Shown piece by piece: positions 1 through 36,020 of a stretch of DNA of 64,000 nt (position 1 is its first letter; every line of letters begins with the position of its first letter). The notes under the pieces are model-generated. The model saw only the letters and a program-made list of their open reading frames with translations. It searched no databases and was not told the origin of the DNA. This DNA comes from Nemopilema nomurai (lineage: Eukaryota; Cnidaria; Scyphozoa; Rhizostomeae; Rhizostomatidae): positions 788,009 through 852,008 of the forward strand of contig ML133378.1 in assembly GCA_003864495.1 (NCBI GenBank). Reading direction: 5' to 3'. Position numbers and translations under genes: made by a program.

Positions 1-366
1 GTAAAAACCCTACTCCGATAATCGCTAGGGGGGAGAGGGGTATGTTGGCAATTTGAATCTGGTTTCACGCATCTGGTTGCGCTATTGTTGAAGCCGAAAT
101 CTTACTGTTTCTAAAACAAGCCCTCCAAATTGGTAGAAAGTGAGTGTTTAGCCAATTTACCTTAAAACGGTGTATTTCTAAGAGTAAAAACCCTACTCCG
201 ATAATCGCTAGGGGGGAGAGGGGTATGTTGGCAATTTGAATCTGGTTTCACGCATCTGGTTGCGCTATTGTTGAAGCCGAAATCTTGCTGTTTCTAAAAC
301 AAGCCCTCCAAATTGGTAGAGACTGAACATTTAGTCAATTTACCTTAAAACTGTGTATTTCTAAGA
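1..366. repeat. End of ~185-bp subtelomeric tandem array (unit 1)
   Basis: Two copies are visible, starting at 1 and 184 with GTAAAAACCCTACTCCGATA. They match the last copies of the large array at 18187-21050. A G-rich stretch (CTAGGGGGGAGAGGGG) recurs in each copy. No coding sequence is evident. Confidence 0.9.
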
Positions 367-855
367 GTAAAAGCCCGACTCCAATATGCTGCTTACTGAC
401 AGTCTTTGATACGGATGGCAGTTGTGAGAGAAATGAGAGAGAAAACAGTAAACTGGAAAGGTTACCTTTTTGAATTAGTTTCTGCTCTTGGAAAAGTGAC
501 TTTGAAAAATTATAGAAAAACTAAGGAACTTGCCGGTCTGGTCTTCTTCTCCTAATTTGTGATCTATTGACATTTTGAAGCTGAAAAAAAAGTACCTTGT
601 TAGTGACTTGCAAAGAACTTCTCTTACCATTGTCTCTATCAGGTATTGTTGTGCCCCCGCTGTTGTTCTTTTGCTGACAATAATTTCCGGCCATTTAAAT
701 TTTTTGATAATTACCCGATGACACTTTGATAAACAAAGGTTTTGTTTGCGTATTCTAATCGACAACCACACAGGGCTTCATGTCAATCATACTTCTCAGA
801 TCGAATGTTCGTTGAGCTTCTGGCAACTTGCACGTGCGCCTATTCGTTTTTGAAA
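367..855. other. Leader region upstream of nuclease-SET exon 1
   Basis: Single-copy sequence between the 185-bp array and the first coding exon. It should hold the promoter and 5'UTR of the nuclease-SET gene. I see no convincing TATA box or other named element. The short frames here are not conserved as coding. Confidence 0.5.
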
Positions 856-1012
856 ATGGAGGCAATCGAGCAAGTGGTCACAATTTTCCAAAGGATTTTG
901 ACCAACTTGCTCGAAATCCAACATGCTAATGTGGCAGAAGATGTAAACCGCGACCTTCTCCGCTTGTCTTTGCAAGCGGAGCAAGACGTCGAGGCCGTGT
1001 GTCGTCGTGTTG
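856..1012 (+). CDS. Exon 1 of nuclease-SET gene, unit 1
   Basis: The ATG at 856 has a good context (AAAATGG) and opens a 52-residue acidic, probably helical peptide beginning MEAIEQVVTIFQ. It runs to a strong splice donor at 1013 (GTGAGTAA). The exon ends in phase 1. The acceptor at 4270-4271 starts exon 2 with the two bases needed to finish an alanine codon and enters exactly the frame of the long coding exon. This phase match is the main evidence that the two exons belong together. The exon has no recognisable domain. In copy 2 the same exon has lost one base. Extra exons inside the intron cannot be excluded. Confidence 0.62.
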
Positions 1013-1537
1013 GTGAGTAATTTTAAACTTCGCTTTATTAGAGCAGCTCACCATGTTCTCTATACTTGAACGTTTGAGCATTTCGAAGTGCTCTCTATGG
1101 CCAGCACTGGCTTGAGAAAACACAAAGATCGAAGCAAGTAAATCTATATGAGTAAATGTAAAACTTTCGTTCTTCAGATGCGATTAGTCAAGCATTCATG
1201 GCAACACCCCTTTTGAAAAGTTACGGTTGTGAAATCCAGGCCTTTGGTAAATCACGAATTTCAGAATGGAGCGAAATTCTTTTATATCTAAGCCCATTTC
1301 TAAGTACGTTAACATCATTTCAAAGTAAGAATAAATTTGACAATAAACCACACTGTTGAAGAATATTTTGCGAAGTCTAATGTTTATGTCTAATTCAACT
1401 TACCTAAAAGGAGATTTACCAATCTTTAGCTTCGCTTATTATCAGTAGAGCTGTATAAAGTTGCGTTTGTTGGTTGTCCTCTTTTATACTGCAATTCAGG
1501 TGATTTGTGACGCAGTACATAAATATAGTATCAAAAG

Positions 1538-2553
1538 ATTTTTCTCGAATCTTAGTCGTGCACTTTGACCACACATGGGAACCATTTTTCGTGCACTAGT
1601 AGCATCACATCATTTGCACCAGGGTATTAACGTAACAGATCAGATGGCCTGTTACTGCTTTCGTAGATTATGATTTTGTGACACAATGAATAAACATAGT
1701 AGCAGAAGATTTTTCTCGAATCTTAGTCGTGCACTTTGACCACACATGGGAACCATTTTTCGTGCACTAGTAGCATCACATCATTTGCACCAGGGTATTA
1801 ACGTAACAGATCAGATGGCCTGTTACTGCTTTCGTAGATTATGATTTTGTGACACAATGAATAAACATAGTAGCAGAAGATTTTTCTCGAATCTTAGTCG
1901 TGCACTTTGACCACACATGGGAACTATTTTTCGTGCACTAGTAGCATCACATCATTTGCACCAGGGTATTAACGTAACAGATCAGATGGCCTGTTACTGC
2001 TTTCGTAGATTATGATTTTGTGACACAATGAATAAACATAGTAGCAGAAGATTTTTCTCGAATCTTAGTCGTGCACTTTGACCACACATGGGAACATTTT
2101 TCGTGCACTAGTAGCATCACATCATTTGCACCAGGGTATTAACGTAACAGATCAGATGGCCTGTTACTGCTTTCGTAGATTATGATTTTGTGACACAATG
2201 AATAAACATAGTAGCAGAAGATTTTTCTCGAATCTTAGTCGTGCACTTTGACCACACATGGGAACCATTTTTCGTGCACTAGTAGCATCACATCATTTGC
2301 ACCAGGGTATTAACGTAACAGATCAGATGGCCTGTTACTGCTTTCGTAGATTATGATTTTGTGACACAATGAATAAACATAGTAGCAGAAGATTTTTCTC
2401 GAATCTTAGTCGTGCACTTTGACCACACATGGGAACTATTTTTCGTGCACTAGTAGCATCACATCATTTGCACCAGAGTATTAACGTAACAGATCAGATT
2501 ACCTGTTACTGCTCTCGTAGATTATGATTTTGTGACGCAGCGAATAAACATAG
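1538..2553. repeat. 171-bp intronic tandem array, six copies (unit 1)
   Basis: The string GATTTTTCTCGAATCTTAG recurs at about 1538, 1708, 1879, 2050, 2220 and 2391, a period of 170-171 bp with only a few substitutions. Each copy carries the short inverted pair GTGCAC. A more diverged copy continues at 2943-3115 on the far side of an inserted MITE. Confidence 0.95.
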
Positions 2554-2555
2554 TA

Positions 2556-2940
2556 CACGCTTTTTTTATAAGGAACCTACCCAGGGCCTAGTTCCAAAAG
2601 TTCCTTATTCGATGACCTCAAGTCATCAGATTTTAGTACCAAAGTTCCTTAATTTTCACTGCACTTCAATAAGCCTTAACACTTAATAGAGAGAGGGCGA
2701 GATAAATATGCGGAAACTACTCAATGAAGCACTTGACACACGAATAGCAAACAATTTACGCGAGTATTGGCTGCAAATGAATGGAACCAGCTTTTTAGCT
2801 CTTGATGGTTCAGTTAAAAAAAAATTTCAAATCGAAAAGTTCCATAGGTATTTCGTTGTTAGTATTATAAGTTCTTTAAATATTTCGGCCTTCTACATGT
2901 AGGTTCCTTATAAAGTGGTTCCTTATGAAAAAAAAGCGTG
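2556..2940. mobile_element. 385-bp MITE with TA target duplication (unit 1)
   Basis: The left end starts CACGCTTTTTTTATAAGGAA and the right end finishes with its inverted counterpart (TTCCTTATGAAAAAAAAGCG then TG). It is flanked by TA at 2554-2555 and 2941-2942 and interrupts the 171-bp repeat cleanly. TA duplication with inverted termini fits a non-autonomous Tc1/mariner-type element. A second inner copy of the GGAACC/TTCCTTA motif lies near each end. The 64-codon frame inside is not a transposase. The same insertion is in copy 2, so it is older than the duplication. Confidence 0.8.
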
Positions 2941-2942
2941 TA

Positions 2943-3115
2943 GCAAAAGATTTTTCTTGAATCTCAGTCGTGTACTTTTACCCAACATAGAAACCATTTT
3001 TCGTGCACTAGTAGCATCACATCATTTGCACCAGGGTATTAACGTAACAGATCAGATGGCCTGTTACTGCTTTCGTAGATTATGATTTTGTGACGCAGTG
3101 AATAAACATAGTAGC
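2943..3115. repeat. Diverged 171-bp repeat copy beyond the MITE (unit 1)
   Basis: The host repeat resumes after the TA at 2941-2942, with more substitutions than the six leftward copies. This suggests the array grew from its left part, or that the MITE isolated this copy from homogenisation. Confidence 0.8.
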
Positions 3116-4271
3116 AAACGATTTTTGTTGAATCTTTGTTGTGCCCTTTTACCCAAACTGGGAACCATTATTTGTAAAACATGGCTACCAGAAGTTTTGA
3201 ACAAGTCTACTTTTGGTGCTAGGCCTACTTTGAGACATTCTTACCTAGAGGGTCAAATCTGCCAGTTTGTGGCAGCTATTTTTCAATTTTTTTAGTTTAT
3301 GCTAACCATAATATCCCACCTACGTCGGTTTTTAATAGTCTATTGTGGCCTAACATTATTCATTTGTTTACTAGATTATATATATGTGCGTGAAGAGGAG
3401 CGAAGAGTGAGATATAACGGTAAGAATACAACATAAATTTGTAGCTACCAACAAACTAATATTTTATGCTATTTCCACGAATGTGCTAATCTATGGAACT
3501 CAAAAAGAGTTAAAATGGATTTAGCTAATTACATTCTATTTTGACATTATTGATTGAAAGTTTTTTGTCAACCACGAATCCTGAAGAGGTTTGTGGAGGA
3601 GGTTAAAACTTTCTATATCACTTCCTTACCTTTTCAATCTTGTCAAGTCAGACTGTGTTGTGAAATATATCAAACTTATAGGCAAATGTTGAAAAGGATT
3701 CGGGAAAGAACATAAGGAAATTTAACGAATTGGAATCTTTATTTTTTTGATAATAGTATAATCAGATGGTCAGATGTTTGAGAAAGGGCAATTTAAATAT
3801 TTGCTATCATATCATTTGTAGAAACGATAGAAAGGACAAGTAAATTTATTTGCAGTGATAGAGGATATCGTTTTTTCGCTTGCCGAAGCAACGTAAGAAA
3901 GTTTAAGTAGTGGATTTTATACTTCTTTCATAAAGTATAGTCAGATGATACAGAAAAATCAATTTATATATATGTTTTCAGATGATTTGTAGAAATGATA
4001 AAAAGGAGAAATAGTTGAGTTCTTGCTACCTTCGCAAAATCTCACTTTACCACTAAATAGAGCTTCAACAATAAATATCTTTTTTATAGAGATGTGCTGA
4101 TAAATAATGCAAACAATATGTTCAGCCAGACCTTTAACTTTTTACATTACTTAAGCATTACCTATATATATATAAATTTGATATAATTCAATAAATCTCA
4201 GTTGTGAATACTCTAACTTGAAACTGGTGCTATTGTCCATAAAAATTAAGCTGATGTTTTTCATTCCCCAG

Positions 4272-6768
4272 CTACCTTCCTTGGCCCACAGAGGAAGAAG
4301 AGGTGTGCAGCCACTGCTTCAGATCCCGGCAAGTATAATTTCGTTGCGTCTTCTTCTTCTTCTTCTTCTTCTCTTCAACCCTGACTGGGGCTGGAGGTGT
4401 TGATTTGGAGCAAGGACCCGTTGTCAATCAGGCTGACAGGTCCATCGAAAATGCATCTCTTGAAGAAGGGCTTGAGCAAACGCTGGACGTTTCAGAGCCA
4501 GAGATGCCCACTGAAGATGCATTGGTAGATGAGTTCTCTCAAAATGTGCGGCACGGGGACGAGCTGTCGATTCATACCGAAGGCTCCAGTCAGGATATCT
4601 TTGGCGGCGAAAGCTTGGCTTCTGCGCTTCTGAAACTTTGATGTTGCAGGCTCACTTCAGAGTGAGCCTGTCGCACGAAGCAACAGAAAGGGGGCGCGCT
4701 CCACTTTCATTGGCCACCACACAAGTGGAAGTTCTAGGTATGCCGAGGTGCTGGCGCATTCAGCATCGCCCTCTGATGACTGCGAGTATGCGAGGAGGTT
4801 CACGCGCCATGACAGTACGTATGTTCTTCCTCAAGCTTCTTCATGTGGCAGAATGTTCCAGCTGGATTTGCCACACTATACTTGTGCGGAGGTCGTCCTG
4901 ATTCCTGAAGGCATTGACCCGTCCAAAACATGTATGGAATGAAGACAGCAATGCTGAGTTAGACGTGCTACTGGGGTGCGTTAAATTATTTCCACGCTGT
5001 TCGGAACAAGGTGTTCTGGCTGGTTGGTCGGTTTATTGTGGATTCATCTTGTAGTACTGGAACGTCCAGAGATGAATGTGCCACCAACCTAGCCAAAAGG
5101 ATGTTCAATAGGAGGAGGGAGGAGTACCACCGCCTGCTGCGCTCCTGCGGATGCGGCATGTGCTTGCAGGCTGTTGGGGAGCACGTCTCTCGCGGCTTGC
5201 ATTGCTGCCGTATCGACTCGCGCGTGCGCATAATTAACTATAAGTTCTCCAACACGAGCAAGCGCTCGTTGTTGAGAATGGTAAGGCTTGCGGAGGAACT
5301 GGGACCCACCCCTGACGCGCTGCGCTTTTCAAATCTCTCTGTTCCAGAAAGTGTGTTTTCAACAGCAGTTTTGCAGATTCACCTTTCTGGGTTCCTTTGC
5401 GCCATTTCAACTGGGTCCTTCCTGGATGTGCCAGACTTTCTATTGTACGACTTTCCATCGGAGGATGACGGTCGGTGGGTCAAAATTCCATTGGATGTCT
5501 GCTTCTTTCCAGATGCGGATGGCGTCACAATAGAAAGGTGCGAGAGAAACGATTTTGTTTGTCTGTTTGGATCTCCGTCTGTGCGGTTTCGACTTGAGGG
5601 ACTTGATGCTCCTGAGATGAACACATCCGTTAAGTATACTGAAGGGACAAGTGGTCAATATTGTCGGTGGTTGGATTGCGTTGGCCACAACTCCTTGAGG
5701 TTTCTTAGGAGGGTTCTTGGCAAAGTTTACCATGATGAGTTGAAGGTTGTGCCTAGATACGATTCATTGGGACACCTAGCTAAGGATGCTCATGGGCGGT
5801 TCATTGTCCGAATTCTCTTTCGGGAGAGCGGTGATGGGGCTTTCAAAGATCTTGGGGAGACTCTAATCAGGCGGGGAATGGCTTTTCTATACCCCATTTT
5901 CGGCCTTCCTAGGGCGTATTTAGAAGCTGCCAGACATGCCAAGACAAATCGTTTGGGTCTCTTCCAGCACGAAACAGAGGTTTTAGAGGCTATCCTCCCA
6001 AGTAAGTGTAGAGGGGAAAGTAGTGGGGAAAAAGAGGTGCCATTGCGTCAGGCTGGTCCTTTTGGCTCAAAATGTGCAATTGTCTCCTCCCCTCGGAAAT
6101 GTTCTGAGGTCCTCGCTATGGAGAGAAAGCTACGTGTGGGGGAGAGTACTATAGGGGGGGCCGGGGATGGGCTGTTTTTAAAACCTCAGCCAGGAAGGAT
6201 CCCAAGAGGCACAAGATTGTGCCTCTATTTAGATTCCTTACTTTCACGCCCTTCTGATCTTTCTTCGCAGGATTATCTTCTGGAAGCAAGAGGCAGAGGG
6301 CGTATGTTGTTGTTTGCAGATGCCGAGAAGTGCCATGATATCTTCCTTGGCCCCAAATGCAATGACAAGTCATTCGGCTCTGTATTTGGGAGGATTGATT
6401 TTGGTTCACTGGAAGCAGGTGGTGCATGCGGAAGACCAAGAAGGGCTGAGGCGGCTTCAGTTACAGTGACCGCCTTGGATACCTTCTTCACAGAGTTTAG
6501 GAAGGTTGAAGAGGAAGTCAGTAACTGTAAGTTTGTCTTTGATGCGCCCTTCACATTCTTAGAAACCACCAGAGACCTTCCAGCACACACTAGCATCGAG
6601 CTCTTTGTCTCTTACGGAATTTCCGCTTACTGGATTCCAAAGATTCAATCGATCGGTGCTAGGGAACCACCTTTTGCCAATGAATTCGAGGAGTCCCTCC
6701 ATTTGTTATTTTTAAAACTTAGGGATTGTGGGGGGGTTAGTGAGCGTTGCAGAGAGCTTTTCTCCTAG
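4272..6768 (+). pseudogene. Exon 2 of nuclease-SET gene, unit 1 (frameshifted)
   Basis: Same exon as 24943-27424. Its last 585 codons (5011-6768) are open and hold both domains: the SNase-like core (R and D/E of RLEGLDAPE, then DAHGR) and the SET-like C-terminus ending ELFVSYGISAYW. Upstream, relative to copy 2, it lacks one C near 4378, has a garbled stretch near 4615-4645, and carries extra bases near 4928 (AAAA) and 4977 (GGGG). It keeps one T near 4831 that copy 2 lacks. Each copy is therefore open where the other is broken. The breaks may be real decay or consensus errors. A CTT run at about 4352 encodes a serine tract. Confidence 0.7.
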
Positions 6769-6797
6769 AATGGAAAGGTTCTCTGCATCGTCAAAAC

Positions 6798-6803
6798 AAT
6801 AAA
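6798..6803 (+). promoter_or_regulatory. Polyadenylation signal AATAAA of nuclease-SET gene (unit 1)
   Basis: A canonical AATAAA lies 30 bases after the stop codon, followed by AT-rich sequence. It is the first such signal downstream and is present at the same place in copy 2. Confidence 0.6.
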
Positions 6804-7583
6804 TTATTATAATAATTCATCAAATCTTGATAAAAACTTGTCCTCAAGTATCGATAGCAAAGCTTCTTATCATTTCGTGTTATCAGGTTGAAGTTTTTAA
6901 TTTGAAAAATTCCATCATGGTATTGTCATGTAAAAACATGTTATTAAAACATCTGATAGGAGATCAGTTTACCTTCAACTGCTAATTGATGACAGAAAGG
7001 ATCTCTATTAGATAAAGAATTTTAAATGATCTTAAGTATGAACCTCCTCTTTCATTGGTAATTGGCAATCCTGCTTCTAGGCGTCTGCGCCTTTTGTATT
7101 ATTTTGTATTATTATTTGTATATATGATTTCTTTGCTTGTTTTTGTATATTCATTTTTCTTTATTATTTTGTAATATAATCATTTAACATAAACATATTC
7201 TTTCGTTGGTAATTGGCAATCATTTTGTATATATCTTTGTATTATTTGTATATATATGTTTTTATGTGTTTGTTTTATCTATTTATTGTTTGCATGTTTT
7301 TAAATAATTTTGTAGTATAATTACATTTGATATTGTTTCCTAACCTTCTCGGCCGCTTTCCTTCTTCGAGGTATCTGCTTCTATGTCGTCTGCTTCCATA
7401 CCTACTGTATGACTTTCTGTCGGAGGATGGCAGTCGATAGGTCGACGTACTTTTCGTCTTCTCTCTTCCATTTCCTTGTTCTTCACATCCTGATCAACAT
7501 CCTGAAATAAGGATTCGCTTGTCAGACATCTTGTTCAATTAAAAAATACCAATCAAGTCATGCACAGTCCAAGGATGAGCAGA
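6804..7583. other. AT-rich 3' flank, no gene seen (unit 1)
   Basis: Very T-rich sequence with two copies of TTGGTAATTGGCAATC (about 7057 and 7206) and runs of TTTGTATAT. No coding frame or RNA gene is supported. Confidence 0.6.
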
Positions 7584-8760
7584 GAAGATGCAGGCCGTTC
7601 GAGAAGATCGGGGCAGAAAATTGGGCAGCGGGAAAGGTGGAAACAGACTCTTACCAAAGCAAGGTACGTGCTTACACCCCCTTCTTCCAACAGCGTGACA
7701 TGAGTTGACAAGGCTTGTTTTACACAATAATGCGTTGACCTCTCATTGCTGCAAGGCCTCTAGCTGATAAAGTCAACAGCAAACTGGAAGAAGCAAAATG
7801 GATCAGACTGGCAAATGCTAACCCCCATTCTAAATGTCAAATTGCAACCCTAGCAATGAAGCTTTGAAGCGCCGCAACCCTAGGCAAGGAGGCCACGAGT
7901 TGCAATGTCTGTGAATACAAGAACTGATATGCCTAGGATTAGTGTTTTATTATCATGACTACAATGACAAACAAGTCGCCTTGATGTCTTGATTTTGTGC
8001 AAACTGCAATGTCGCAATAAAAGTCACTGACCAATATCTATCTCTTGCAGGAATACGAGCCATAATAGCGACTAAACAACACACTTGTGGGGAGGGCAAC
8101 TTATTACGTATCGGGGAGAGCGTGGACAGAGGAGATGCAGGCCGTTCGAGAAGATCGGGGCAGAAAATTGGGCAGCGGGAAAGGTGGAAACAGACTCTTA
8201 CCAAAGCAAGGTACGTGCTTACACCCCCTTCTTCCAACAGCGTGACATGAGTTGACAAGGCTTGTTTTACACAATAATGCGTTGACCTCTCATTGCTGCA
8301 AGGCCTCTAGCTGACAAAGTCAACAGCAAACTGGAAGAAGCAAAATGGATCAGACTGGCAAATGCTAACCCCCATTCTAAATGTCAAATTGCAACCCTAG
8401 CAATGAAGCTTTGAAGCGCCGCAACCCTAGGCAAGGAGGCCACGAGTTGCAATGTCTGTGAATACAAGAACTGATATGCCTAGGATTAGTGTTTTATTAT
8501 CATGACTACAATGACAAACAAGTCGCCTTGATGTCTTGATTTTGTGCAAACTGCAATGTCGCAATAAAAGTCACTGACCAATATCTATCTCTTGCAGGAA
8601 TACGAGCCATAATAGCGACTAAACAACACACTTGTGGGGAGGGCAACTTATTACGTATCGGGGAGAGCGTGGACAGAGGAGATGCAGGCCGTTCGAGAAG
8701 ATCGGGGCAGAAAATTGGGCAGCGGGAAAGGTGGAAACAGACTCTTACCAAAGCAAGGTG
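7584..8760. repeat. ~547-bp tandem repeat with exon-like core (unit 1)
   Basis: GATGCAGGCCGTTCGAGAAG recurs at 7587, 8133 and 8681. The second and third copies contain a 160-bp block (8051-8210, 8598-8757) framed by CTCTTGCAG on the left and AAG/GTACGT or AAG/GTGCGT on the right, so each looks like an exon on the + strand. The block is open and encodes a basic peptide with GRSRRSGQKIGQRERWKQ. Because 160 is not a multiple of three, successive blocks would not keep one frame. I therefore call it a repeat, not a gene. Confidence 0.75.
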
Positions 8761-8769
8761 CGTGCTTAC

Positions 8770-9247
8770 ACCTCCTCCGGGTGCACACGCTAACTAGTAT
8801 GCACACATGTTCCGAGGGGGCGAGATGAGATGCCAGGACTTAAAACAGACGAAACAGAAAACAATATACCAAGTTATTTAATATATTGCGACAAAACCAA
8901 AAAAAGATAGGTATGTAGATGCGAAGTATTGTAAATAAAAGAGTTTAGAGTTTAGTTTAGTTTAGAGTAAACATATAGAGTTTATAATGTTATTGAGTTA
9001 CCAAATGTTCTATTGATATGTTAGAAAAGATAATATATATACATTAGAAAGTGGTAAATTTAAAGTCTGGAAGCCAATAATAGAAACAAGAATGTAATGA
9101 AAAAAGATTCAACCCAGGAAAGTGAAAGCCATGGAAATGTGTATTGAGCCTAAATAGATAAGGCAAGGAGAAGGAGAAATATCAAAGAGTAGTTACATAT
9201 CATGTTGTATTGTTATTCGATTTGAGAATGTATTTATTCTAGTAAAA
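8770..9247. other. AT-rich spacer with one hairpin motif (unit 1)
   Basis: It begins with CTCCTCCGGGTGCAC ... TTCCGAGGGGG (8772-8820), a variant of the hairpin found in each 384-bp repeat further right. The rest is AT-rich and includes several TTTAG steps near 8945. No gene is seen. Confidence 0.5.
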
Positions 9248-9920
9248 CTAAAGATAGATAATGGACCCCCGTTTAATAGAAATGACTTTTAGAGATAAAC
9301 CAAAACCTTTGGTATAGAATGGAAACCAAGTACACTATGGCCTCAAGGAAATTCGAATGTTGAAAGCTTGATGAAACCAGTCGATAAAATGTTACAAACA
9401 GCAAAATTGGAAGGAAAGAACTGGAAACAATAACTCCAAAGATTTCTACCTACATACCGAACAACACCGCATGTAACAACGAAAATACATCCGTGTGAAC
9501 TGTTATTCATCGATCTATTCGAGGACAACTACCAGAATTGCTAAGGAGTACCAGAAGTACTTGATAAACAAGCCAAGGAAAACATCGAGAAAAAGAAAGC
9601 TCAAAACAAAGAATATTATGACAAGAAACATATTTGTCTACATAGTTATTTGTCTACAAAAGAGAACAAATAAACTAGTACCAAAGTTCAGTCCTGAAAG
9701 ATTCTTTGTACAAGAACGAAAAGGAACAAAGATAGTGGCGAAAACGCAACGACATATCATAACAAGAAATGTTTCACACTTCAAGAGAGTTCCAACAAAG
9801 AACAGCTACGACAAGGAAGAGGAAGATATTAGTGACAGTGAGAGAAAAAGGAAGAGGAGAAACAAGAGAAGTTTGAAGTCGATAACAGACCAATGAGATC
9901 GAAAAGATTAAAGGTTTCAG
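9248..9920 (+). pseudogene. Ty3/gypsy integrase relic (unit 1)
   Basis: Conceptual translation with stops and frame changes gives the C-terminal half of a Ty3/gypsy integrase. DNGPPF carries the second catalytic Asp and is followed by WPQGNSNVESLM with the catalytic Glu. Then come YRTTPHVTT, RSIRGQLPELL, a lysine-rich linker, and the tail ITRNVSHFKRVP. No reverse transcriptase, protease or clear LTR is visible, so this is a fragment. It carries the same in-frame stops in both units. Copy 1 also lacks a base near 9510 that copy 2 has. It is not a functional gene. Confidence 0.8.
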
Positions 9921-10739
9921 TATCAAGATTTGGATTTATGAAAATGTGAGCAGCCCAGAACATTGCGAATTATAAACAAAGATGTGTCGATAAAGATAAA
10001 GTTATATAGTTTTCGTTGTTATTTTGATCATTATCAGTAGATAAGCTAATTGTAAAGAGCACATTACAGTGGTGCGCGGTATCAAATTTAATAACGGCCA
10101 ACTACTCGTATATATGGAGACACAGGGTTAAGAAGTTATTCATGTGAATTTTCTCTCTTTCGGTTACAATATGATCAGATACAATAAGTTCTAGCTTACA
10201 TTTTAACAGTGGATGACTTCTAATTCTTGTGTCTCACAGTTTATAAGAGGTGAATATGTATGTAGTGCATAACAAAAGCCTAGTAGACATAACTTATGTT
10301 AACTGAGTTGTAAGCTCAGAATCTAGAGTAAATATTAATTTATTATTAATATTATCATATCTATATAACGTCATGTGCCTGCAAATATGATTGGATTGAT
10401 TCATATATTAAGCAATCTCCCAAACAGAAGAAGTGTTTATATCTGGTTTACAAAGTCTACAACTTTAAAATGGATATGCAAAGAAGCTAGGAGTGAAGGA
10501 TTAAAGACAAGATTCAAGAGTCAAGTTATAATGTTCTTGATACATTGCTCAAAAATAATTACCATACACAACTAATATATTTAAGAAAACATTTGTGTTA
10601 TTCATAACATATTAAATCAAATGTACAATCACGAGCATATAAAAGTTTCCTTTAATCTTCAGTTTCTGCGTCAGTAGAGAAGTTCGTTCAGTTGCCTTTA
10701 CCTAAAAGAAATAAAAATTGATATAGTCCTTTGAGTACT
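9921..10739. other. Spacer after gypsy relic, no gene seen (unit 1)
   Basis: AT-rich sequence. It may include the 3' end of the old retroelement, but I could not delimit an LTR. A short frame at 10375-10575 lacks any family signature. Confidence 0.5.
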
Positions 10740-17993: not shown

Positions 17994-18186
17994 GAAGATT
18001 TCCATTCATAGTGGTGCTCGCGATTTTTGGGGTTGATAAAAGCGTAGCCTGGTAAAGCACATAATAGCCTTGAATAACACATCATTTCGGATCAAAGATG
18101 TTACACCAAACTGGGTAAAGTATACAGATACGGATAGTGGGAAAACAGATCTAGATTGAATGCGTGAAACTGGTTTTTGCCATCTT
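17994..18186. other. Left-end unique segment of unit 2
   Basis: About 190 bp of single-copy DNA between the boundary repeat and the 185-bp array. An ATG on the - strand at 18005 opens a frame that reads straight into the TTAGGG tract. Confidence 0.5.
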
Positions 18187-23221: not shown

Positions 23222-23223
23222 TA

Positions 23224-24942: not shown

Positions 24943-27424
24943 CTACCTTCCTTGGCCCACAGAGGAAGAAGAGGTGTGCAGCCACTGCTTCAGATCCCGG
25001 CAAGTATAATTTCGTTGCGTCTTCTTCTTCTTCTTCTTCTTCTCTTCAACCCCTGACTGGGGCTGGAGGTGTTGATTTGGAGCAAGGACCCGTTGTCAAT
25101 CAGGCTGACAGGTCCATCGAAAATGCATCTCTTGAAGAAGGGCTTGAGCAAACGCTGGACGTTTCAGAGCCAGAGATGCCCACTGAAGATGCATTGGTAG
25201 ATGAGTTCTCTCAAAATGTGCGGCACGGGGACGAGCTGTCGATTCATACCGAAGGCTCCAGTCAGGATATCTTTGGCGGCGAAAGCGCTTCTGAAACTTT
25301 GGATGTTGCAGGCTCACTTCAGAGTGAGCCTGTCGCACGAAGCAACAGAAAGGGGGCGCGCTCCACTTTCATTGGCCACCACACAAGTGGAAGTTCTAGG
25401 TATGCCGAGGTGCTGGCGCATTCAGCATCGCCCTCTGATGACTGCGAGTATGCGAGGAGGTTCACGCGCCATGACAGTACGTATGTTCTTCCCAAGCTTC
25501 TTCATGTGGCAGAATGTTCCAGCTGGATTTGCCACACTATACTTGTGCGGAGGTCGTCCTGATTCCTGAAGGCATTGACCCGTCCAAACATGTATGGAAT
25601 GAAGACAGCAATGCTGAGTTAGACGTGCTACTGGGTGCGTTAAATTATTTCCACGCTGTTCGGAACAAGGTGTTCTGGCTGGTTGGTCGGTTTATTGTGG
25701 ATTCATCTTGTAGTACTGGAACGTCCAGAGATGAATGTGCCACCAACCTAGCCAAAAGGATGTTCAATAGGAGGAGGGAGGAGTACCACCGCCTGCTGCG
25801 CTCCTGCGGATGCGGCATGTGCTTGCAGGCTGTTGGGGAGCACGTCTCTCGCGGCTTGCATTGCTGCCGTATCGACTCGCGCGTGCGCATAATTAACTAT
25901 AAGTTCTCCAACACGAGCAAGCGCTCGTTGTTGAGAATGGTAAGGCTTGCGGAGGAACTGGGACCCACCCCTGACGCGCTGCGCTTTTCAAATCTCTCTG
26001 TTCCAGAAAGTGTGTTTTCAACAGCAGTTGCAGATCACCTTTCTGGGTTCCTTTGCGCCATTTCAACTGGGTCCTTCCTGGATGTGCCAGACTTTCTATT
26101 GTACGACTTTCCATCGGAGGATGACGGTCGGTGGGTCAAAATTCCATTGGATGTCTGCTTCTTTCCAGATGCGGATGGCGTCACAATAGAAAGGTGCGAG
26201 AGAAACGATTTTGTTTGTCTGTTTGGATCTCCGTCTGTGCGGTTTCGACTTGAGGGACTTGATGCTCCTGAGATGAACACATCCGTTAAGTATACTGAAG
26301 GGACAAGTGGTCAATATTGTCGGTGGTTGGATTGCGTTGGCCACAACTCCTTGAGGTTTCTTAGGAGGGTTCTTGGCAAAGTTTACCATGATGAGTTGAA
26401 GGTTGTGCCTAGATACGATTCATTGGGACACCTAGCTAAGGATGCTCATGGGCGGTTCATTGTCCGAATTCTCTTTCGGGAGAGCGGTGATGGGGCTTTC
26501 AAAGATCTTGGGGAGACTCTAATCAGGCGGGGAATGGCTTTTCTATACCCCATTTTCGGCCTTCCTAGGGCGTATTTAGAAGCTGCCAGACATGCCAAGA
26601 CAAATCGTTTGGGTCTCTTCCAGCACGAAACAGAGGTTTTAGAGGCTATCCTCCCAAGTAAGTGTAGAGGGGAAAGTAGTGGGGAAAAAGAGGTGCCATT
26701 GCGTCAGGCTGGTCCTTTTGGCTCAAAATGTGCAATTGTCTCCTCCCCTCGGAAATGTTCTGAGGTCCTCGCTATGGAGAGAAAGCTACGTGTGGGGGAG
26801 AGTACTATAGGGGGGGCCGGGGATGGGCTGTTTTTAAAACCTCAGCCAGGAAGGATCCCAAGAGGCACAAGATTGTGCCTCTATTTAGATTCCTTACTTT
26901 CACGCCCTTCTGATCTTTCTTCGCAGGATTATCTTCTGGAAGCAAGAGGCAGAGGGCGTATGTTGTTGTTTGCAGATGCCGAGAAGTGCCATGATATCTT
27001 CCTTGGCCCCAAATGCAATGACAAGTCATTCGGCTCTGTATTTGGGAGGATTGATTTTGGTTCACTGGAAGCAGGTGGTGCATGCGGAAGACCAAGAAGG
27101 GCTGAGGCGGCTTCAGTTACAGTGACCGCCTTGGATACCTTCTTCACAGAGTTTAGGAAGGTTGAAGAGGAAGTCAGTAACTGTAAGTTTGTCTTTGATG
27201 CGCCCTTCACATTCTTAGAAACCACCAGAGACCTTCCAGCACACACTAGCATCGAGCTCTTTGTCTCTTACGGAATTTCCGCTTACTGGATTCCAAAGAT
27301 TCAATCGATCGGTGCTAGGGAACCACCTTTTGCCAATGAATTCGAGGAGTCCCTCCATTTGTTATTTTTAAAACTTAGGGATTGTGGGGGGGTTAGTGAG
27401 CGTTGCAGAGAGCTTTTCTCCTAG
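24943..27424 (+). CDS. SNase-like plus SET-like fusion protein, main exon (unit 2)
   Basis: Joined to exon 1, and allowing one missing base near 25493, the frame is 880 codons. The first ~240 residues are disordered: a basic RKKR patch, a serine tract, then acidic sequence. From the Met codon at 25514, 636 codons are open. In that numbering there is a Cys-rich patch (SCGCGMC, 98-103; HCC, 116-118), then an SNase-like domain at ~215-375. Arg245, Asp250, Glu253, Asp310 and Arg314 match the staphylococcal nuclease catalytic Arg35, Asp40, Glu43, Asp83 and Arg87. A SET-like region follows: STIGGAGDGLF at 430-440 and NCKF to ELFVSYGISAYW at 556-592. The usual NHS/ND catalytic asparagine is not obvious, so methyltransferase activity is uncertain. 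A nuclear cargo protein of the unit is inferred. Confidence 0.72.
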
Positions 27425-27453
27425 AATGGAAAGGTTCTCTGCATCGTCAAAAC

Positions 27454-27459
27454 AATAAA
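27454..27459 (+). promoter_or_regulatory. Polyadenylation signal AATAAA of nuclease-SET gene (unit 2)
   Basis: Canonical AATAAA, 30 bases past the stop codon, conserved with unit 1. Confidence 0.6.
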
Positions 27460-28239
27460 TTATTATAATAATTCATCAAATCTTGATAAAAACTTGTCCT
27501 CAAGTATCGATAGCAAAGCTTCTTATCATTTCGTGTTATCAGGTTGAAGTTTTTAATTTGAAAAATTCCATCATGGTATTGTCATGTAAAAACATGTTAT
27601 TAAAACATCTGATAGGAGATCAGTTTACCTTCAACTGCTAATTGATGACAGAAAGGATCTCTATTAGATAAAGAATTTTAAATGATCTTAAGTATGAACC
27701 TCCTCTTTCATTGGTAATTGGCAATCCTGCTTCTAGGCGTCTGCGCCTTTTGTATTATTTTGTATTATTATTTGTATATATGATTTCTTTGCTTGTTTTT
27801 GTATATTCATTTTTCTTTATTATTTTGTAATATAATCATTTAACATAAACATATTCTTTCGTTGGTAATTGGCAATCATTTTGTATATATCTTTGTATTA
27901 TTTGTATATATATGTTTTTATGTGTTTGTTTTATCTATTTATTGTTTGCATGTTTTTAAATAATTTTGTAGTATAATTACATTTGATATTGTTTCCTAAC
28001 CTTCTCGGCCGCTTTCCTTCTTCGAGGTATCTGCTTCTATGTCGTCTGCTTCCATACCTACTGTATGACTTTCTGTCGGAGGATGGCAGTCGATAGGTCG
28101 ACGTACTTTTCGTCTTCTCTCTTCCATTTCCTTGTTCTTCACATCCTGATCAACATCCTGAAATAAGGATTCGCTTGTCAGACATCTTGTTCAATTAAAA
28201 AATACCAATCAAGTCATGCACAGTCCAAGGATGAGCAGA
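27460..28239. other. AT-rich 3' flank, no gene seen (unit 2)
   Basis: Counterpart of 6804-7583 with no visible gene. It is close to identical between units although non-coding, which supports a recent duplication. Confidence 0.6.
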
Positions 28240-29416
28240 GAAGATGCAGGCCGTTCGAGAAGATCGGGGCAGAAAATTGGGCAGCGGGAAAGGTGGAAAC
28301 AGACTCTTACCAAAGCAAGGTACGTGCTTACACCCCCTTCTTCCAACAGCGTGACATGAGTTGACAAGGCTTGTTTTACACAATAATGCGTTGACCTCTC
28401 ATTGCTGCAAGGCCTCTAGCTGATAAAGTCAACAGCAAACTGGAAGAAGCAAAATGGATCAGACTGGCAAATGCTAACCCCCATTCTAAATGTCAAATTG
28501 CAACCCTAGCAATGAAGCTTTGAAGCGCCGCAACCCTAGGCAAGGAGGCCACGAGTTGCAATGTCTGTGAATACAAGAACTGATATGCCTAGGATTAGTG
28601 TTTTATTATCATGACTACAATGACAAACAAGTCGCCTTGATGTCTTGATTTTGTGCAAACTGCAATGTCGCAATAAAAGTCACTGACCAATATCTATCTC
28701 TTGCAGGAATACGAGCCATAATAGCGACTAAACAACACACTTGTGGGGAGGGCAACTTATTACGTATCGGGGAGAGCGTGGACAGAGGAGATGCAGGCCG
28801 TTCGAGAAGATCGGGGCAGAAAATTGGGCAGCGGGAAAGGTGGAAACAGACTCTTACCAAAGCAAGGTACGTGCTTACACCCCCTTCTTCCAACAGCGTG
28901 ACATGAGTTGACAAGGCTTGTTTTACACAATAATGCGTTGACCTCTCATTGCTGCAAGGCCTCTAGCTGACAAAGTCAACAGCAAACTGGAAGAAGCAAA
29001 ATGGATCAGACTGGCAAATGCTAACCCCCATTCTAAATGTCAAATTGCAACCCTAGCAATGAAGCTTTGAAGCGCCGCAACCCTAGGCAAGGAGGCCACG
29101 AGTTGCAATGTCTGTGAATACAAGAACTGATATGCCTAGGATTAGTGTTTTATTATCATGACTACAATGACAAACAAGTCGCCTTGATGTCTTGATTTTG
29201 TGCAAACTGCAATGTCGCAATAAAAGTCACTGACCAATATCTATCTCTTGCAGGAATACGAGCCATAATAGCGACTAAACAACACACTTGTGGGGAGGGC
29301 AACTTATTACGTATCGGGGAGAGCGTGGACAGAGGAGATGCAGGCCGTTCGAGAAGATCGGGGCAGAAAATTGGGCAGCGGGAAAGGTGGAAACAGACTC
29401 TTACCAAAGCAAGGTG
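28240..29416. repeat. ~547-bp tandem repeat with exon-like core (unit 2)
   Basis: Same three starts as in unit 1 (28243, 28789 and 29337 for GATGCAGGCCG) with the same splice-like borders of the 160-bp block. Copy number is unchanged between units. Confidence 0.75.
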
Positions 29417-29903
29417 CGTGCTTACACCTCCTCCGGGTGCACACGCTAACTAGTATGCACACATGTTCCGAGGGGGCGAGATGAGATGCCAGGACTTAAA
29501 ACAGACGAAACAGAAAACAATATACCAAGTTATTTAATATATTGCGACAAAACCAAAAAAAGATAGGTATGTAGATGCGAAGTATTGTAAATAAAAGAGT
29601 TTAGAGTTTAGTTTAGTTTAGAGTAAACATATAGAGTTTATAATGTTATTGAGTTACCAAATGTTCTATTGATATGTTAGAAAAGATAATATATATACAT
29701 TAGAAAGTGGTAAATTTAAAGTCTGGAAGCCAATAATAGAAACAAGAATGTAATGAAAAAAGATTCAACCCAGGAAAGTGAAAGCCATGGAAATGTGTAT
29801 TGAGCCTAAATAGATAAGGCAAGGAGAAGGAGAAATATCAAAGAGTAGTTACATATCATGTTGTATTGTTATTCGATTTGAGAATGTATTTATTCTAGTA
29901 AAA
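29417..29903. other. AT-rich spacer (unit 2)
   Basis: Equivalent of 8770-9247, including the hairpin motif at its left edge. No gene. Confidence 0.5.
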
Positions 29904-30575
29904 CTAAAGATAGATAATGGACCCCCGTTTAATAGAAATGACTTTTAGAGATAAACCAAAACCTTTGGTATAGAATGGAAACCAAGTACACTATGGCCTC
30001 AAGGAAATTCGAATGTTGAAAGCTTGATGAAACCAGTCGATAAAATGTTACAAACAGCAAAATTGGAAGGAAAGAACTGGAAACAATAACTCCAAAGATT
30101 TCTACCTACATACCGAACAACACCGCATGTAACAACGAAAATACATCCGTGTGAACTGTTATTCAGTCGATCTATTCGAGGACAACTACCAGAATTGCTA
30201 AGGAGTACCAGAAGTACTTGATAAACAAGCCAAGGAAAACATCGAGAAAAAGAAAGCTCAAAACAAAGAATATTATGACAAGAAACATATTTGTCTACAT
30301 AGTTATTTGTCTACAAAAGAGAACAAATAAACTAGTACCAAAGTTCAGTCCTGAAAGATTCTTTGTACAAGAACGAAAAGGAACAAAGATAGTGGCGAAA
30401 ACGCAACGACATATCATAACAAGAAATGTTTCACACTTCAAGAGAGTTCCAACAAAGAACAGCTACGACAAGGAAGAGGAAGATATTAGTGACAGTGAGA
30501 GAAAAAGGAAGAGGAGAAACAAGAGAAGTTTGAAGTCGATAACAGACCAATGAGATCGAAAAGATTAAAGGTTTC
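29904..30575 (+). pseudogene. Ty3/gypsy integrase relic (unit 2)
   Basis: Same fragment as 9248-9920, with DNGPPF, WPQGNSNVES and ITRNVSHFKRV recognisable and with shared stop codons. Here the stretch LLFSRSIRGQLPELL stays in frame, because one base near 30167 that is missing from copy 1 is present. Non-functional. Confidence 0.8.
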
Positions 30576-31390
30576 AGTATCAAGATTTGGATTTATGAAA
30601 ATGTGAGCAGCCCAGAACATTGCGAATTATAAACAAAGATGTGTCGATAAAGTTATATAGTTTTCGTTGTTATTTTGATCATTATCAGTAGATAAGCTAA
30701 TTGTAAAGAGCACATTACAGTGGTGCGCGGTATCAAATTTAATAACGGCCAACTACTCGTATATATGGAGACACAGGGTTAAGAAGTTATTCATGTGAAT
30801 TTTCTCTCTTTCGGTTACAATATGATCAGATACAATAAGTTCTAGCTTACATTTTAACAGTGGATGACTTCTAATTCTTGTGTCTCACAGTTTATAAGAG
30901 GTGAATATGTATGTAGTGCATAACAAAAGCCTAGTAGACATAACTTATGTTAACTGAGTTGTAAGCTCAGAATCTAGAGTAAATATTAATTTATTATTAA
31001 TATTATCATATCTATATAACGTCATGTGCCTGCAAATATGATTGGATTGATTCATATATTAAGCAATCTCCCAAACAGAAGAAGTGTTTATATCTGGTTT
31101 ACAAAGTCTACAACTTTAAAATGGATATGCAAAGAAGCTAGGAGTGAAGGATTAAAGACAAGATTCAAGAGTCAAGTTATAATGTTCTTGATACATTGCT
31201 CAAAAATAATTACCATACACAACTAATATATTTAAGAAAACATTTGTGTTATTCATAACATATTAAATCAAATGTACAATCACGAGCATATAAAAGTTTC
31301 CTTTAATCTTCAGTTTCTGCGTCAGTAGAGAAGTTCGTTCAGTTGCCTTTACCTAAAAGAAATAAAAATTGATATAGTCCTTTGAGTACT
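30576..31390. other. Spacer after gypsy relic (unit 2)
   Basis: AT-rich counterpart of 9921-10739. One GATAAA-type step (about 30650) is shorter than in unit 1. No gene is seen. Confidence 0.5.
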
Positions 31391-32475
31391 ATGACTGGGC
31401 GGCAGTACCAAAAATCCCGACTTGGAAATCTACATAGACTTGTATAGGAAACTGGCAATTACACCCCCTCCGGGTGCAAAGGCTGACTTAAATCCACGCT
31501 TGCTCCGAGGGGGCAAACCATGCTAGCTGAGCATGAAACAACCCTAGTACAACATTATAGCAAGAGTTCAGGCCGACAGCGGCTCTGACTGACTAGAAAA
31601 TCAAAGGTTTGTGAGTGTCACAAGACGGCCACTTTTGTGTTGTTTTTGTGCATTTTCAACATAAAAACGGCAGAGTTTCACATGAAAACACAGCTAAAAT
31701 GCACAGGAAGATTGCACAGAGTATTGGCAACTATAGTAGGCAACTAATACTGGCTGCCCTGCCAGGGGGGCACTATGACTGGGCGGCAGTACCAAAAATC
31801 CCGACTTGCAAATCTACACAGACTTGTATAGGAAACTGGCAATTACACCCCCTCCGGGTGCAAAGGCTGACTTAAATCCACGCTTGCTCCGAGGGGGCAA
31901 ACCATGCTAGCTGAGCATGAAACAACCCTAGTACAACATTATAGCAAGAGTTCAGGCCGACAGCGGCTCTGACTGACTAGAAAATCAAAGGTTTGTGAGT
32001 GTCACACACGGCGGCCACTTTTGTGTTGTTTTTGTGCATTTTCAACATAAAAACAGCAGAGTTTCACATGAAAAACACAGCTAAAATGCACAGGAAGATT
32101 GCACAGAGTATTGGCAACTATAGTAGGCAACTAATACTGGCTGCCCTGCCAGGGGGGCACTATGACTGGGCGGCAGTACCAAAAATCCCGACTTGCAAAT
32201 CTACACAGACTTGTATAGGAACTGGCAATTACACCCCCTCCGGGTGCAAAGGCTGACTTAAATCCACGCTTGCTCCGAGGGGGCAAACCATGCTAGCTGA
32301 GCATGAAACAACCCTAGTACAACATTATAGCAAGAGTTCAGGCCGACAGCGGCTCTGACTGACTAGAAAATCAAAGGTTTGTGAGTGTCACAAGACGGCC
32401 ACTTTTGTGTTGTTTTTGTGCATTTTCAACATAAAAACAGCAGAGTTTCACATGAAAACACAGCTAAAATGCACG
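31391..32475. repeat. 384-bp tandem array, about 2.8 copies (unit 2)
   Basis: Repeat starts at about 31391, 31774 and 32160. The array breaks off within the third copy and joins GGCCTGGGCCGC directly, whereas in unit 1 the last copy stops earlier and extra bases precede GGGCCTGGGCC. The array edge as well as the copy number differs between units. Confidence 0.95.
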
Positions 32476-33604
32476 GCCTGGGCCGCTCTATTTATGTTGG
32501 CAATGATAGGAAGATTTATTGTGAAAGGAGGAAAAACATTTGTCTGCGAATCAATAGTGATTGATAAAATAAGTGAGTTTCTCTGACCGCATATTGTTTT
32601 TGTTTTATCACACAGTTGTCAGTAGATATTGTGTTTGACGAACCTTCAAAACCTGGGAAGTGCTTTCAACATGGCGGCCTCAGGTTACGGAACGAGACAA
32701 GCGAGTTAAATAGGAAAACACGTTAATTGAAAACTCACCACTTTGTCACAGCTTGCAAGAGGAAGTAGCTTTCATTAAGCAATAGATTTATCCAGTTTCC
32801 AGTAATAATCCGTTAGTAATTCTCTGAAGACCTTCCACTTTATCAAGCACGCGCCAAATCAGTCGTTCCCCACTTCACAACAGCAACCACTTCAGTTACC
32901 TCTTTTTGCGTCGGCTTAAAGTTTTTTTGACCATTGTTCTCCCAACTTTAACCCTTAATATCTCGACGAAATATTCATTTGCGACCCCTCAAACTTAATC
33001 CCGATTTAAAGAGCTTGAAATTCTCTATCCAACCCATGAGATAACATTTGCATTAGAACACTGTTTTCTGAAACTCTCCATAGTCGGCAAGTTCGAAAAA
33101 CCTTCAGATGACCTCCTCCGGGTGTAATGGCGGACCTCTACATACTTACGTCTCTTAACAGTGTCGGATTTTCAAAATTCAACCAAAAATCAGCATAAAT
33201 AGCTAGGAAGCTGAAACTTTGATAGCTTGTAGTACTAGGCGTCACCTCAAACATAAGATCAGATGACAGGGATATTCTTACCCGTTTAGGCGTCAACGGG
33301 GTGTAAAGAATGGAAATTCCCTGAAGGGGCTATCCCCTTTCGCGTCATCATCATAATCATCACCATTGGCTTCTTTTTCGATCGCGTTGTCAAATATTGC
33401 TGTTTTTGCATGAGGGAATCGGTAACCAAGTGAAATTATGAATGATTTGCTTCGAATTTTCGGCTCAGGCCATTTAAATGCAAAGAAAATACGGCATGGG
33501 CTACGGCAAAACGTTTTCATAGAAATAATAAAGTAAAAAAAACATGTAAAAAGCAAATACACAGTTTTCGAATTAATTTTTATGGTTCATTGAAGCTACA
33601 TGTT
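32476..33604. other. Spacer between 384-bp array and YR gene (unit 2)
   Basis: Counterpart of 14100-15238. It carries one left arm of the G/C hairpin motif near 33112. No gene is supported. Confidence 0.5.
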
Positions 33605-35581
33605 CTACGCTTGTTGCAGTCTCTTTTCCAGCTCTTCTTGTATTGCGTTCTTTTGCGTCTGAAGTCGATACACATTTTCAACTGCATTGTAAGCGACGTC
33701 AATTGGATGAAAGATGGAAGTTGCTCTTTTTCTCAAAGTGTTGCAATAATCATCTTATATGTGCTTTCTTCGCCTGTCTCTCTCAGCTCAGCCATCAGGA
33801 CAGTTTCTTTATCGAAGCCAAGAACTTTTCCTAGTGTGAAGGTCGACTCCTCCGTCAACAGCGCAACAATCTGCCCTTTTAACGGCAAATCGACGTTGAC
33901 CAATTCGCCTACTTGGATATCTAAAGCCGCTGCCGTAGTTTGTGACATAAAATTCACCCCTCTCTCCACCAACTGCTCGTTTTCCTCGGTATAATACCGT
34001 AGCCGTTGGGTCTTTACAGTGTGTGACATTAATCGTGCTATTCCCGCTTGCAAAGCTCTATCGTCTTTCTCTTGGACAAAACCCAATTTACTAGGCTTTT
34101 TCTTAGCGTGTCTGTTGTCATGTGTAACTTTTCATCGCTATACTTTTGGAAAGATCTCCCCATATATATTGAAAATGCTTCGGAACTTGCAAACGGGTCG
34201 CCCGAATGGCGTACGAACAGATACTTGTGATCTTTCCCTGTTGTTAGAATTTTTCTATGTATAGTCACGTATGTCCTAAAGTACTCTTCCAAGTAATTTA
34301 TTTTGGAGATGATTACACGATTGCATCCATATGTCTTTTCAGTCTTAAAATTATAAATAACCATCTCCACCGTCCCGTCCTTCTTGAAAACTACGTAGTT
34401 CCCTTTATTCTGTGGCTCTTCCTCTTCTTCGTAAATTACTTTAAGGTTGATAACATCGATGTTCCTTGACGGGTTGACGGTGGAGAACATCAGCAAAATG
34501 ATGAAATCGTGGTATAATCTAGCTTTATCACTTGCTGATCCAATGTAATTTTCTAACTCATACTTCATGCTTTTTATCGTATCCAGGACCTTAGACCATT
34601 TGAACCTCTTCCTCCGATTGTTGTCAACTGGACGGTCTTTCCTCCTTTGTCTTCGTACTCTCTCTGTGTGCAAAATTGACAAATATTACGGAGTGAACTT
34701 AGTTAGTATGGCAACATGGAGCACAAAACAGTTAGCACAAAATAGTTTATACAAAATATTTGGTATAATTTACCTTCCTAACTCATTCAATTAATGATGG
34801 GGGTGTCCTCACCACCAACATGCTACATAGAATTCAGGACTACAGTAAATCACTCGCCTGCAACTGTGACTGCATCGTCTTCAACTCCACAATCTCTTGT
34901 ATTTCGAGATGACTACCTGTGTGCTTGCTCTTTCGATGCAAATATTTCGCAACGTACAATAGGCACTGAGCATACCCCGCTACAGTTCCGTAGCTCAAGC
35001 CTTTGCAATTAAGTTGTCAACAAATCGTTCCACCATTTCTATCTCTAGGCAGTACTCAATTTTTGGAAGGCGGCCATCCTTCTCAAAAGATATATATAGT
35101 ATTCCATTGCTCGGCTTGTTATTTTCTTTATTGTTGTCACTGCTATGTGTCCAGATGGTCTCTCTGGGTTGACCACTTTTCTGTAAAACTCTGAAATTCG
35201 GTCGAATTCTTCCGCCAGCTGAACGGATACTATTTCCTTTGACTTTCGCTGTTTCCTAATATTCTTGTTTTCCCGTGAAACACAACCATCCGTCTGAGTC
35301 TCCTTCTCGGTGATGTCGCTGCACTCTTCGTGATTCCCTTCATTTTCGCTTGTCACTGGAAAATACGCTGTCTCTTGACCAGGAGAGAGCTTTCTCTTCT
35401 CTTTATTCGTTCAAAATCCTCCACCGTTATTAGCCAGTGACCTCCCTTTTGTTTCCAAGGCGTGATTGCAACATGCACGGATTTCTCCTTCCGCTAGCAC
35501 CGCCTGGATGTTCATTCTCCGAAGTAACGACTTTAAGCAAGATGCCTTCACATCAGCAATGGCCGCTCTTACATCGGCCAT
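33605..35581 (-). pseudogene. Tyrosine recombinase, frameshifted copy (unit 2)
   Basis: Exon 1 is 35581-34858 and exon 2 is 34663-33605, with the same GC-AG intron as copy 1. Relative to copy 1 it lacks single bases in several short runs: near 33744 and 34074, near 34652, 34999 and 35087 (five A to four), near 35403 and 35449 (T runs), and near 35470 (AAA to AA). Each shifts the frame. The catalytic blocks (NPSRNIDV, DTLRKS, LMSHTVKTQRLRYY) are otherwise unchanged. Losses concentrated in homopolymers suggest either very young decay or read-consensus error. Confidence 0.75.
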
Positions 35582-35736
35582 TGCTACGTGGGTCTTCCCA
35601 TTGAATATGTAGCATGGTACGCATGGTTGGCCGACACCACTGGGTTCTAAAATGGAAGAGAGACCCAGTCAAACCTACACAAATAGAGAATAATCAGAAG
35701 CACTCACTACTTAACCCTTACTCTGCCAAGATTTTC
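35582..35736 (-). promoter_or_regulatory. YR promoter-proximal tip of unit 2
   Basis: Identical in layout to 17226-17380, ending CCAAGATTTTCC against CCCTAA at exactly the same base. This makes the junction a fixed end rather than a random break. Confidence 0.4.
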
Positions 35737-36020
35737 CCCTAACCCTAACCCTAACCCTAACCCTAACCCTAACCCTAACCCTAACCCTAACCCTAACCCT
35801 AACCCTAACCCTAACCCTAACCCTAACCCTAACCCTAACCCAAACCCTAACCCTAACCCCATACCCTAACCCCATACCCTAACCCTAACCCCATACCCTA
35901 ACCCCATACCCTAACCCTAACCCCATACCCTAACCCTAACCCTAACCCAAAGCCCTAACCCTAACCCTTACCCGAACCCTTACCCGAACCCTAACCCTAA
36001 CCTAACCCTAACACTAACCC
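35737..36020. repeat. Degenerate telomeric block at the subtelomere edge
   Basis: About 16 clean CCCTAA repeats adjoin unit 2. Variants such as CCCATACCCTAA, CCCAAAGCCCTAA and CCCTTACCCGAA follow. Clean distal and degenerate proximal repeats are the usual polarity of a native telomere base. Confidence 0.95.

Follow-up and report, generated by a model that had tools for sequence, protein, structure and literature searches.

The window analyzed here is a 64,000-nucleotide stretch of contig C14 of the jellyfish Nemopilema nomurai (C14:788009-852008; scaffold total, 1442695). It carries two copies of a large unit that encodes a tyrosine recombinase (YR) and lies in telomeric repeats, which we interpret as a probable telomere-dwelling DNA element. 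The genome searched was the 226-contig, 212.9-Mb assembly, with contigs labeled C1, C14, C53, and so on. For the published assembly, PMC6441219 gives 213 Mb in 255 scaffolds, SSPACE scaffolding, and 1.48% gaps.

The two copies stand head to tail, as the preliminary description of this DNA had stated, and are direct repeats at 98.3 to 99.5% identity (positions 1-11818 versus 20668-32474, 99.5%; 13037-17661 versus 31388-36022, 98.3%). Features are given on the plus strand unless stated otherwise, and the unit size is 18 to 21 kb. Copy 1 occupies 1-17380, with its left end outside the window and its right end at 17369-17381, and copy 2 (about 17.8 kb) occupies 17969-35736. The telomeric DNA reported at the left end of copy 2 was found between the copies at 17381-17976, as 98 perfect CCCTAA repeats (17381-17968) and then the last bases. 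From left to right, the unit consists of the left end, a 185-bp tandem array (18197-21056; copy 1 part, 1-386), a 171-bp tandem array (22172-23223; copy 1, 1504-2555), a second gene on the plus strand (24921-27424; copy 1, 4533-6768), a 384-bp tandem array (10737-14061; copy 2, 31388-32474), the YR gene on the minus strand reading inward, and the right end. The lengths of the internal arrays vary between the two copies. Inward from the units, copy 2 is followed by a telomeric tract at 35737-36022 (17 perfect repeats, then degenerate ones), which joins a 17-bp subtelomeric array (CCTAGCCTCGTTTTCGT; 36019-46885). Short telomeric blocks are embedded at several places in this array.

The unit had been described as free of reverse transcriptase, and the Pfam scan of five unit frames agreed, with no reverse transcriptase match; other frames of at least 120 amino acids (aa) were judged by eye only. 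The reverse transcriptase in the window (47320-49932) is part of a separate DIRS-like retrotransposon at 47320-51184, inside the 17-bp array, which has its own YR (50066-51184) and flanks that are 94.9% identical (45588-46414 versus 51351-52176). The unit was considered as a DIRS element and rejected, because the DIRS element at 47.3 to 51.2 kb stands apart from it.

Genes of the unit

The YR gene consists of two exon-like frames at 15239-17312 on the minus strand, at the right tip of the unit. The 5' frame (16479-17312) showed weak matches to HTH_17 (E = 0.0024) and a SAM-like core-binding domain (E = 0.17), and the catalytic frame (15239-16339) encodes 366 aa with a C-terminal Tudor/SH3-like domain. 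Each copy had been said to carry this gene at its tip, reading inward; position and strand agreed in both copies, but the gene of copy 2 (33608-35668, minus strand) is broken into several frames. The genome contained 47 YR matches, five of which are intact 366-aa frames. In the window YR, the residues R, K, R, H, and Y (nine positions after H) are in register, with T in place of the H of HxxR, and the same five residues line up in most YR relatives (25 to 54% identity). The deviations were C at the second R (P0011 and P0014), Q at H (P0018), and N at Y (P0003), and P0019 runs off. A structural comparison of the YR model gave, in its first 32 rows, tyrosine recombinases, DNA topoisomerases, and the phage protein SroF, and the modeled window protein shows the tyrosine recombinase catalytic fold.

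Stray Pfam matches in the YR family were to DUF5724 and Phage_Mu_Gp27 (2 of 18 members each) and HAT_KAT11 (1 of 18), and the PHROGs matches were two unnamed families with one member each. Lin1889, the best PDB sequence match of the family (E = 0.001), is not a recombinase and was taken as chance because the fold comparison disagrees. An early YR structure model from three sequences was poor (pLDDT, 37) and was left unused. In addition, a distant YR-like gene beside a C2H2-like zinc-finger and SAM-like frame was observed at L082 (C100:353109-355546) and L083 (C143), and the open frames at the C100 locus are 341 and 420 aa long.

The second gene had been called a nuclease-SET gene. Its large frame is present in both copies (25475-27424 and 4963-6768) and is SNase-like, with a weak Pfam match (E = 0.00088) under the curated cutoff, but the SET half matched no Pfam family at E ≤ 5, its SET likeness being by eye only. 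An NCBIfam EcnA match (2e-6) was far under the cutoff, and an ADP-ribosylating toxin, the sole PDB match of the second-gene profile (E = 0.48), was taken as chance. One relative of the gene showed 48% identity at 99% coverage, and a relative in the jellyfish Rhopilema esculentum showed 67% identity over 43%. Between copy 2 and the C111 copy of subfamily A2, whose frame has no stop, 641 codons gave a synonymous divergence (dS) of 0.218 and a nonsynonymous divergence (dN) of 0.0445. This dN/dS ratio of 0.20 indicates that the second gene is under selection.

Unit ends, direct joints, and subfamilies

Both copies had been reported to end at the same bases on CCCTAA repeats. This was borne out by CCAAGATTTTCC, which the window contains at exactly two positions, 17370 and 35726, and which leads directly into CCCTAA repeats at both. 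The right end of copy 1 (17370-17381) is CCAAGATTTTCC on CCTAA, and that of copy 2 (35726-35737) falls at the same base. The left end of copy 2 (17963-18010) reads CCCTAA followed by CTCTAACCGCGGAAAATACGG. In the assembly, 13 right-tip matches were found, comprising 11 complete ends, one end cut by N on C35, and one 47-base remnant on C61. Five of the 11 complete ends lie on CCCTAA at one base (C14 twice, C53, C111, and C138), and six abut a left end directly (C14 twice, C53 three times, and C37). At least 10 left ends reach the tip, the listing being a lower bound; four of these follow telomeric repeats, all at the same base and one of them (C14:648 kb) after a degenerate telomeric tract, and six belong to the direct joints. 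Units with fixed ends in telomeric DNA are thus present on several contigs, in one register and one orientation, and not only at this locus. A tip-to-tip form had been named as something to look for, and it is present in the assembly arrays as the six direct joints. Ragged ends or flanks other than telomeric repeats, named as evidence to the contrary, were found for a minority of copies (C53, the left array of C14, and C37, and the fragments on C1, C54, and C61).

A particular joint is predicted if the right telomeric junction exchanges with the left one, and six of the six direct joints matched it letter for letter. The left arm is marked by a single T, which was retained at the 10 left ends and is absent from the five telomeric right ends; thus, the exchange falls in CCCTAAC. 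This core is also the short direct repeat found at both unit ends. The telomeric right flanks consist of 98 perfect repeats, 17 repeats and then degenerate ones, or 13 repeats and then variants. These differences in length and variants indicate at least three separate placements.

The junctions could also have arisen by telomere capture, in which an ancestral direct-joint array broke at its joints and telomerase healed the breaks. By sequence logic, healing at the CCCTAAC of a direct joint does yield the observed left telomeric junction. However, capture leaves unexplained the right ends, which face inward and lie on telomere at one base in five of five cases, as well as the position of units outside a degenerate, older telomeric tract and the subtelomeric array (35737-36022), and we consider this origin highly improbable.

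Subfamilies A1 and A2 are 81 to 94% identical in their aligned parts. Window copy 1 and the A2 copy on C111 have YR modules (about 14850-17369, minus strand) with about 99.9% identity, and this near-identity across diverged subfamilies points to a recent swap or homogenization. Family B was located at C14:648.4-657.2 kb, with a further copy beyond, and on C15 (L027, L047, and L050; C14:648-657 kb and C15:1364 kb). It has the 384-bp array in common with family A up to 14999, where it departs into its own right end (GGCAGGATTTCCC on CCTAAC). The YR module had no match in family B, and none of the rows of the YR search across the genome fell there. The three right ends found for this family keep the same register on repeats that are telomeric or telomere-like. 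Family B may depend on another element to move it in trans; alternatively, the YR module may be a gain of family A.

The array structure also bears on whether the unit is a passive subtelomeric repeat like the yeast Y' elements, spread by homologous recombination or break-induced replication, with tracts made by telomerase and slippage and the YR as a passenger. The arrays themselves, the internal tandem repeats, the near-identical joints L019 to L023, and the homogenized YR module are all what ordinary recombination on arrays gives, and such recombination very likely does act on them, without predicting the joint. A passive repeat gives no reason for a direct joint that in six of six cases is the recombinant of two telomeric junctions with a single 6- to 7-base core, and 7 bases are too short for homologous recombination. 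The catalytic residues mostly kept across divergent YR relatives also argue against a passenger, and we regard the passive origin as unlikely.

Chromosome ends and proposed circle formation

The unit had been described as stacked twice at a chromosome end. The telomere-separated stack was seen, but two is an undercount, as the window's side of C14 has five second-gene copies. The window is not at a scaffold end. Instead, C14 is N at each sampled place from 689.4 to 723.3 kb, and telomeric repeats start at 724.27 kb and continue up to the outermost left end of the array. Two arrays face each other on C14, one on the minus strand from about 627 kb and one on the plus strand at 725 to 824 kb. The stretch of N with telomeric repeats beside it suggests that two chromosome ends are joined across the gap. 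The gaps at C14:689-724 kb and C22:1060.1-1061.0 kb are probably assembly joins of two chromosome ends head to head, which is a warning that scaffolders join such ends.

Elsewhere, C53 terminates within the 384-bp array of a unit, C35 begins within a unit (87% identity to window 21512-22044), and C111 and C138 begin with N and then unit sequence. On C14, C15, and C37, N separates the array from the other sequence outside it (5041 bases on C15 and 1 base on C37). Truly interstitial arrays on C37 or C15 were rejected on this ground, a rejection that is not proven. In the located arrays (C14 twice, C53, C111, C138, C37, and C35), the contig end or gap lies on the side opposite the YR end. On C22 and C130, a unit-free telomeric tract lies between a gap and the 17-bp array, which it abuts directly; this is the arrangement expected before insertion. 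On C22 the 17-bp array resumes past the gap in the opposite orientation, which looks like a join of two ends.

Circle formation followed by insertion at CCCTAAC predicts the features observed here, namely the direct joint, both telomeric junctions, a uniform orientation, and a YR encoded at the unit end. It is therefore likely that the unit is an 18- to 21-kb YR-encoding DNA element that lives in telomeres, forms a circle, and is then inserted at the CCCTAAC core. In this model, the YR would join the two ends of the element into a circle with the joint CCAAGATTTTCC-CCTAAC-TCTAACCGCGGAAAAT (left arm also given as TCTAACCGCGG) and would recombine the CCCTAAC of this joint with a CCCTAAC of the telomere. 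Insertion would leave telomeric repeats on both sides, with the right end as CCAAGATTTTCC on CCCTAA and the left end as telomere on TCTAACCGCGG, and a directional core would account for the single orientation. A circle recombining with the end of a resident copy would give a direct head-to-tail joint with one core, and a circle recombining with the telomere beyond a resident copy would give a telomere-separated stack, as in the window. The inner copies would then be the older ones, and their damage would reflect decay.

Several observations weigh against this model. Pfam supports the YR only below its cutoff, Foldseek gave one PDB match at E ≤ 0.001 with a TM score of 0.34, and the YR family profile (1.9 effective sequences) found nothing when compared with the DIRS recombinase of the window. 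Five of the six direct joints (L019 to L023) are near-identical on both sides (0 differences in 335 and 0 to 4 in 340) and thus may be copies of one joint, which leaves at least two independent joints. The flanks of C111 and C138 resemble each other, with 38 differences over 1217 columns, and the two may be one insertion on two haplotypes. The arms around the core share only a 7-bp inverted repeat, which is only suggestive because 70 of 2000 shuffles matched it. The innermost C53 unit breaks off within the YR exon, directly against the 17-bp array, and has no telomeric right junction; in the left array of C14, the innermost second-gene match halts at base 1248 of 1301, with no right end further in; the innermost YR on C37 is decayed; and the C35 YR is full of stops. 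Past its gap, C130 has the 17-bp array in the same orientation, and so its telomeric tract may be interstitial. Finally, the analysis was made on the assembly, which has many gaps.

Fragments lie inside C1, C54, and C61. Second-gene pieces at C54:2.26-2.32 Mb are rearranged, and at L051 (C54:2316400-2323100) the 3' part precedes the 5' part. Pieces of the 185-bp array occur on C44, C5, C53:2.17 Mb, and C54. On C1 (L079 to L081; 2.34 to 2.38 Mb), a 2857-base tandem repeat, of which two copies read are 99.8% alike, carries in each repeat a 310-base YR-exon fragment at 84%, and the three stretches read have no telomeric repeats.

Comparison with known systems

Telomere-dwelling mobile DNA is mainly known as retroelements. 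The yeast Y' elements are subtelomeric tandem units with telomeric tracts between them, carry a helicase gene, and spread by homologous recombination. The array layout of the jellyfish unit is similar, but the unit has a YR and circle-type joints, and no helicase was among the Pfam matches of the five frames scanned. The fungal Starships are large elements with a YR gene at one tip reading inward (the captain, with DUF3435) and a cargo gene, and they are not known to be telomere specific. The unit shares the inward-reading tip YR, the cargo gene, and the large size, but DUF3435 was not among the Pfam matches (E ≤ 1) of either YR frame.

Terminons and Athena are telomere-resident retroelements, and Terminons are described as standing in head-to-tail arrays with short telomeric stretches (PMC6431247). 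These and SART/TRAS (PMC7265360) are telomere residents with a reverse transcriptase, whereas none was detected in the unit. The hammerhead ribozyme found at the 3' end of Terminons was likewise not found, as no Rfam family reached the gathering score in the window. Among YR elements, a Crypton-like DNA element without a detected reverse transcriptase fits the unit. In PMC3212892, animal Cryptons are described, with reference to CryptonA and CryptonI, as lacking a C-terminal domain and terminal repeats, and short direct repeats at both ends are given for fungal Cryptons and CryptonS and as not found in animal Cryptons; the unit has the CCCTAAC core at both ends. CryptonV, a cnidarian YR DNA transposon, is cited as microsatellite specific (Repbase Reports 2012, via PMC8869645). 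By that citation, it would resemble the unit as a cnidarian YR element that inserts in microsatellites.

The preliminary description had set a YR-carried element in TTAGGG tracts apart from the known telomere-dwelling elements as a different mechanism; the idea that YR plus telomere has no precedent was not supported. According to Kawato et al. 2023 (PMC10871703), endogenous nimaviruses have telomere-repeat-specific tyrosine recombinases, and reads suggest concatemers or episomes; the YR-telomere principle thus has a precedent. Both systems are YR-encoding DNA inserted specifically, and here in register, in telomere repeats. The nimaviruses are viral genomes in crustaceans (278 to 401 kb for the majaniviruses) and in (TAACC)n, whereas the unit is 18 to 21 kb, in (CCCTAA)n, and has a Tudor/SH3-like C-terminal domain. 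This target logic and the concatemer or episome hints would suit a remnant of a large, integrating, nimavirus-like telomere-specific virus reduced to its integrase and one or two genes, as would the resemblance of the YR model to giant-virus and virophage proteins (seven matches at E ≤ 0.001). Against such a remnant, a 17.8-kb unit has two recognizable genes, compared with 278 to 401 kb for the majaniviruses (PMC10871703), and neither the YR nor the second-gene protein had a relative in viral-contig searches, from which near records may have been left out. We give a viral remnant very little credence.

Among the matches listed in our literature searches, only PMC10871703 reports a telomere-inserting YR element; the available parts of PMC12506042, PMC11905480, and PMC4455052 held no telomere-targeting content, Starship features were not covered in that of PMC12506042, and PMC13236599 concerns a viral protelomerase. 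As far as these searches went, a small cellular telomere-inserting YR element is not in print. The novelty is therefore a compact non-viral element with recombinase-type joints, telomere-inserting YRs being already known from shrimp viruses. The element combines precise ends in TTAGGG repeats, a circle-type joint kept in arrays, intact YR frames, and a selected partner gene, and CCCTAAC with its two arms offers a short, defined site for direct tests of telomere-targeted recombination. A broader picture, in which a non-viral, non-retroelement telomere resident with cnidarian relatives repeatedly sends circles into TTAGGG ends, lengthens these ends by stacking units, and uses the selected second gene to live in or modify telomeric chromatin, is offered as a speculative extension that we lean against in its entirety. 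If the circle model is true, the telomere-targeting trick of crustacean viruses is also used by an ordinary animal transposon.

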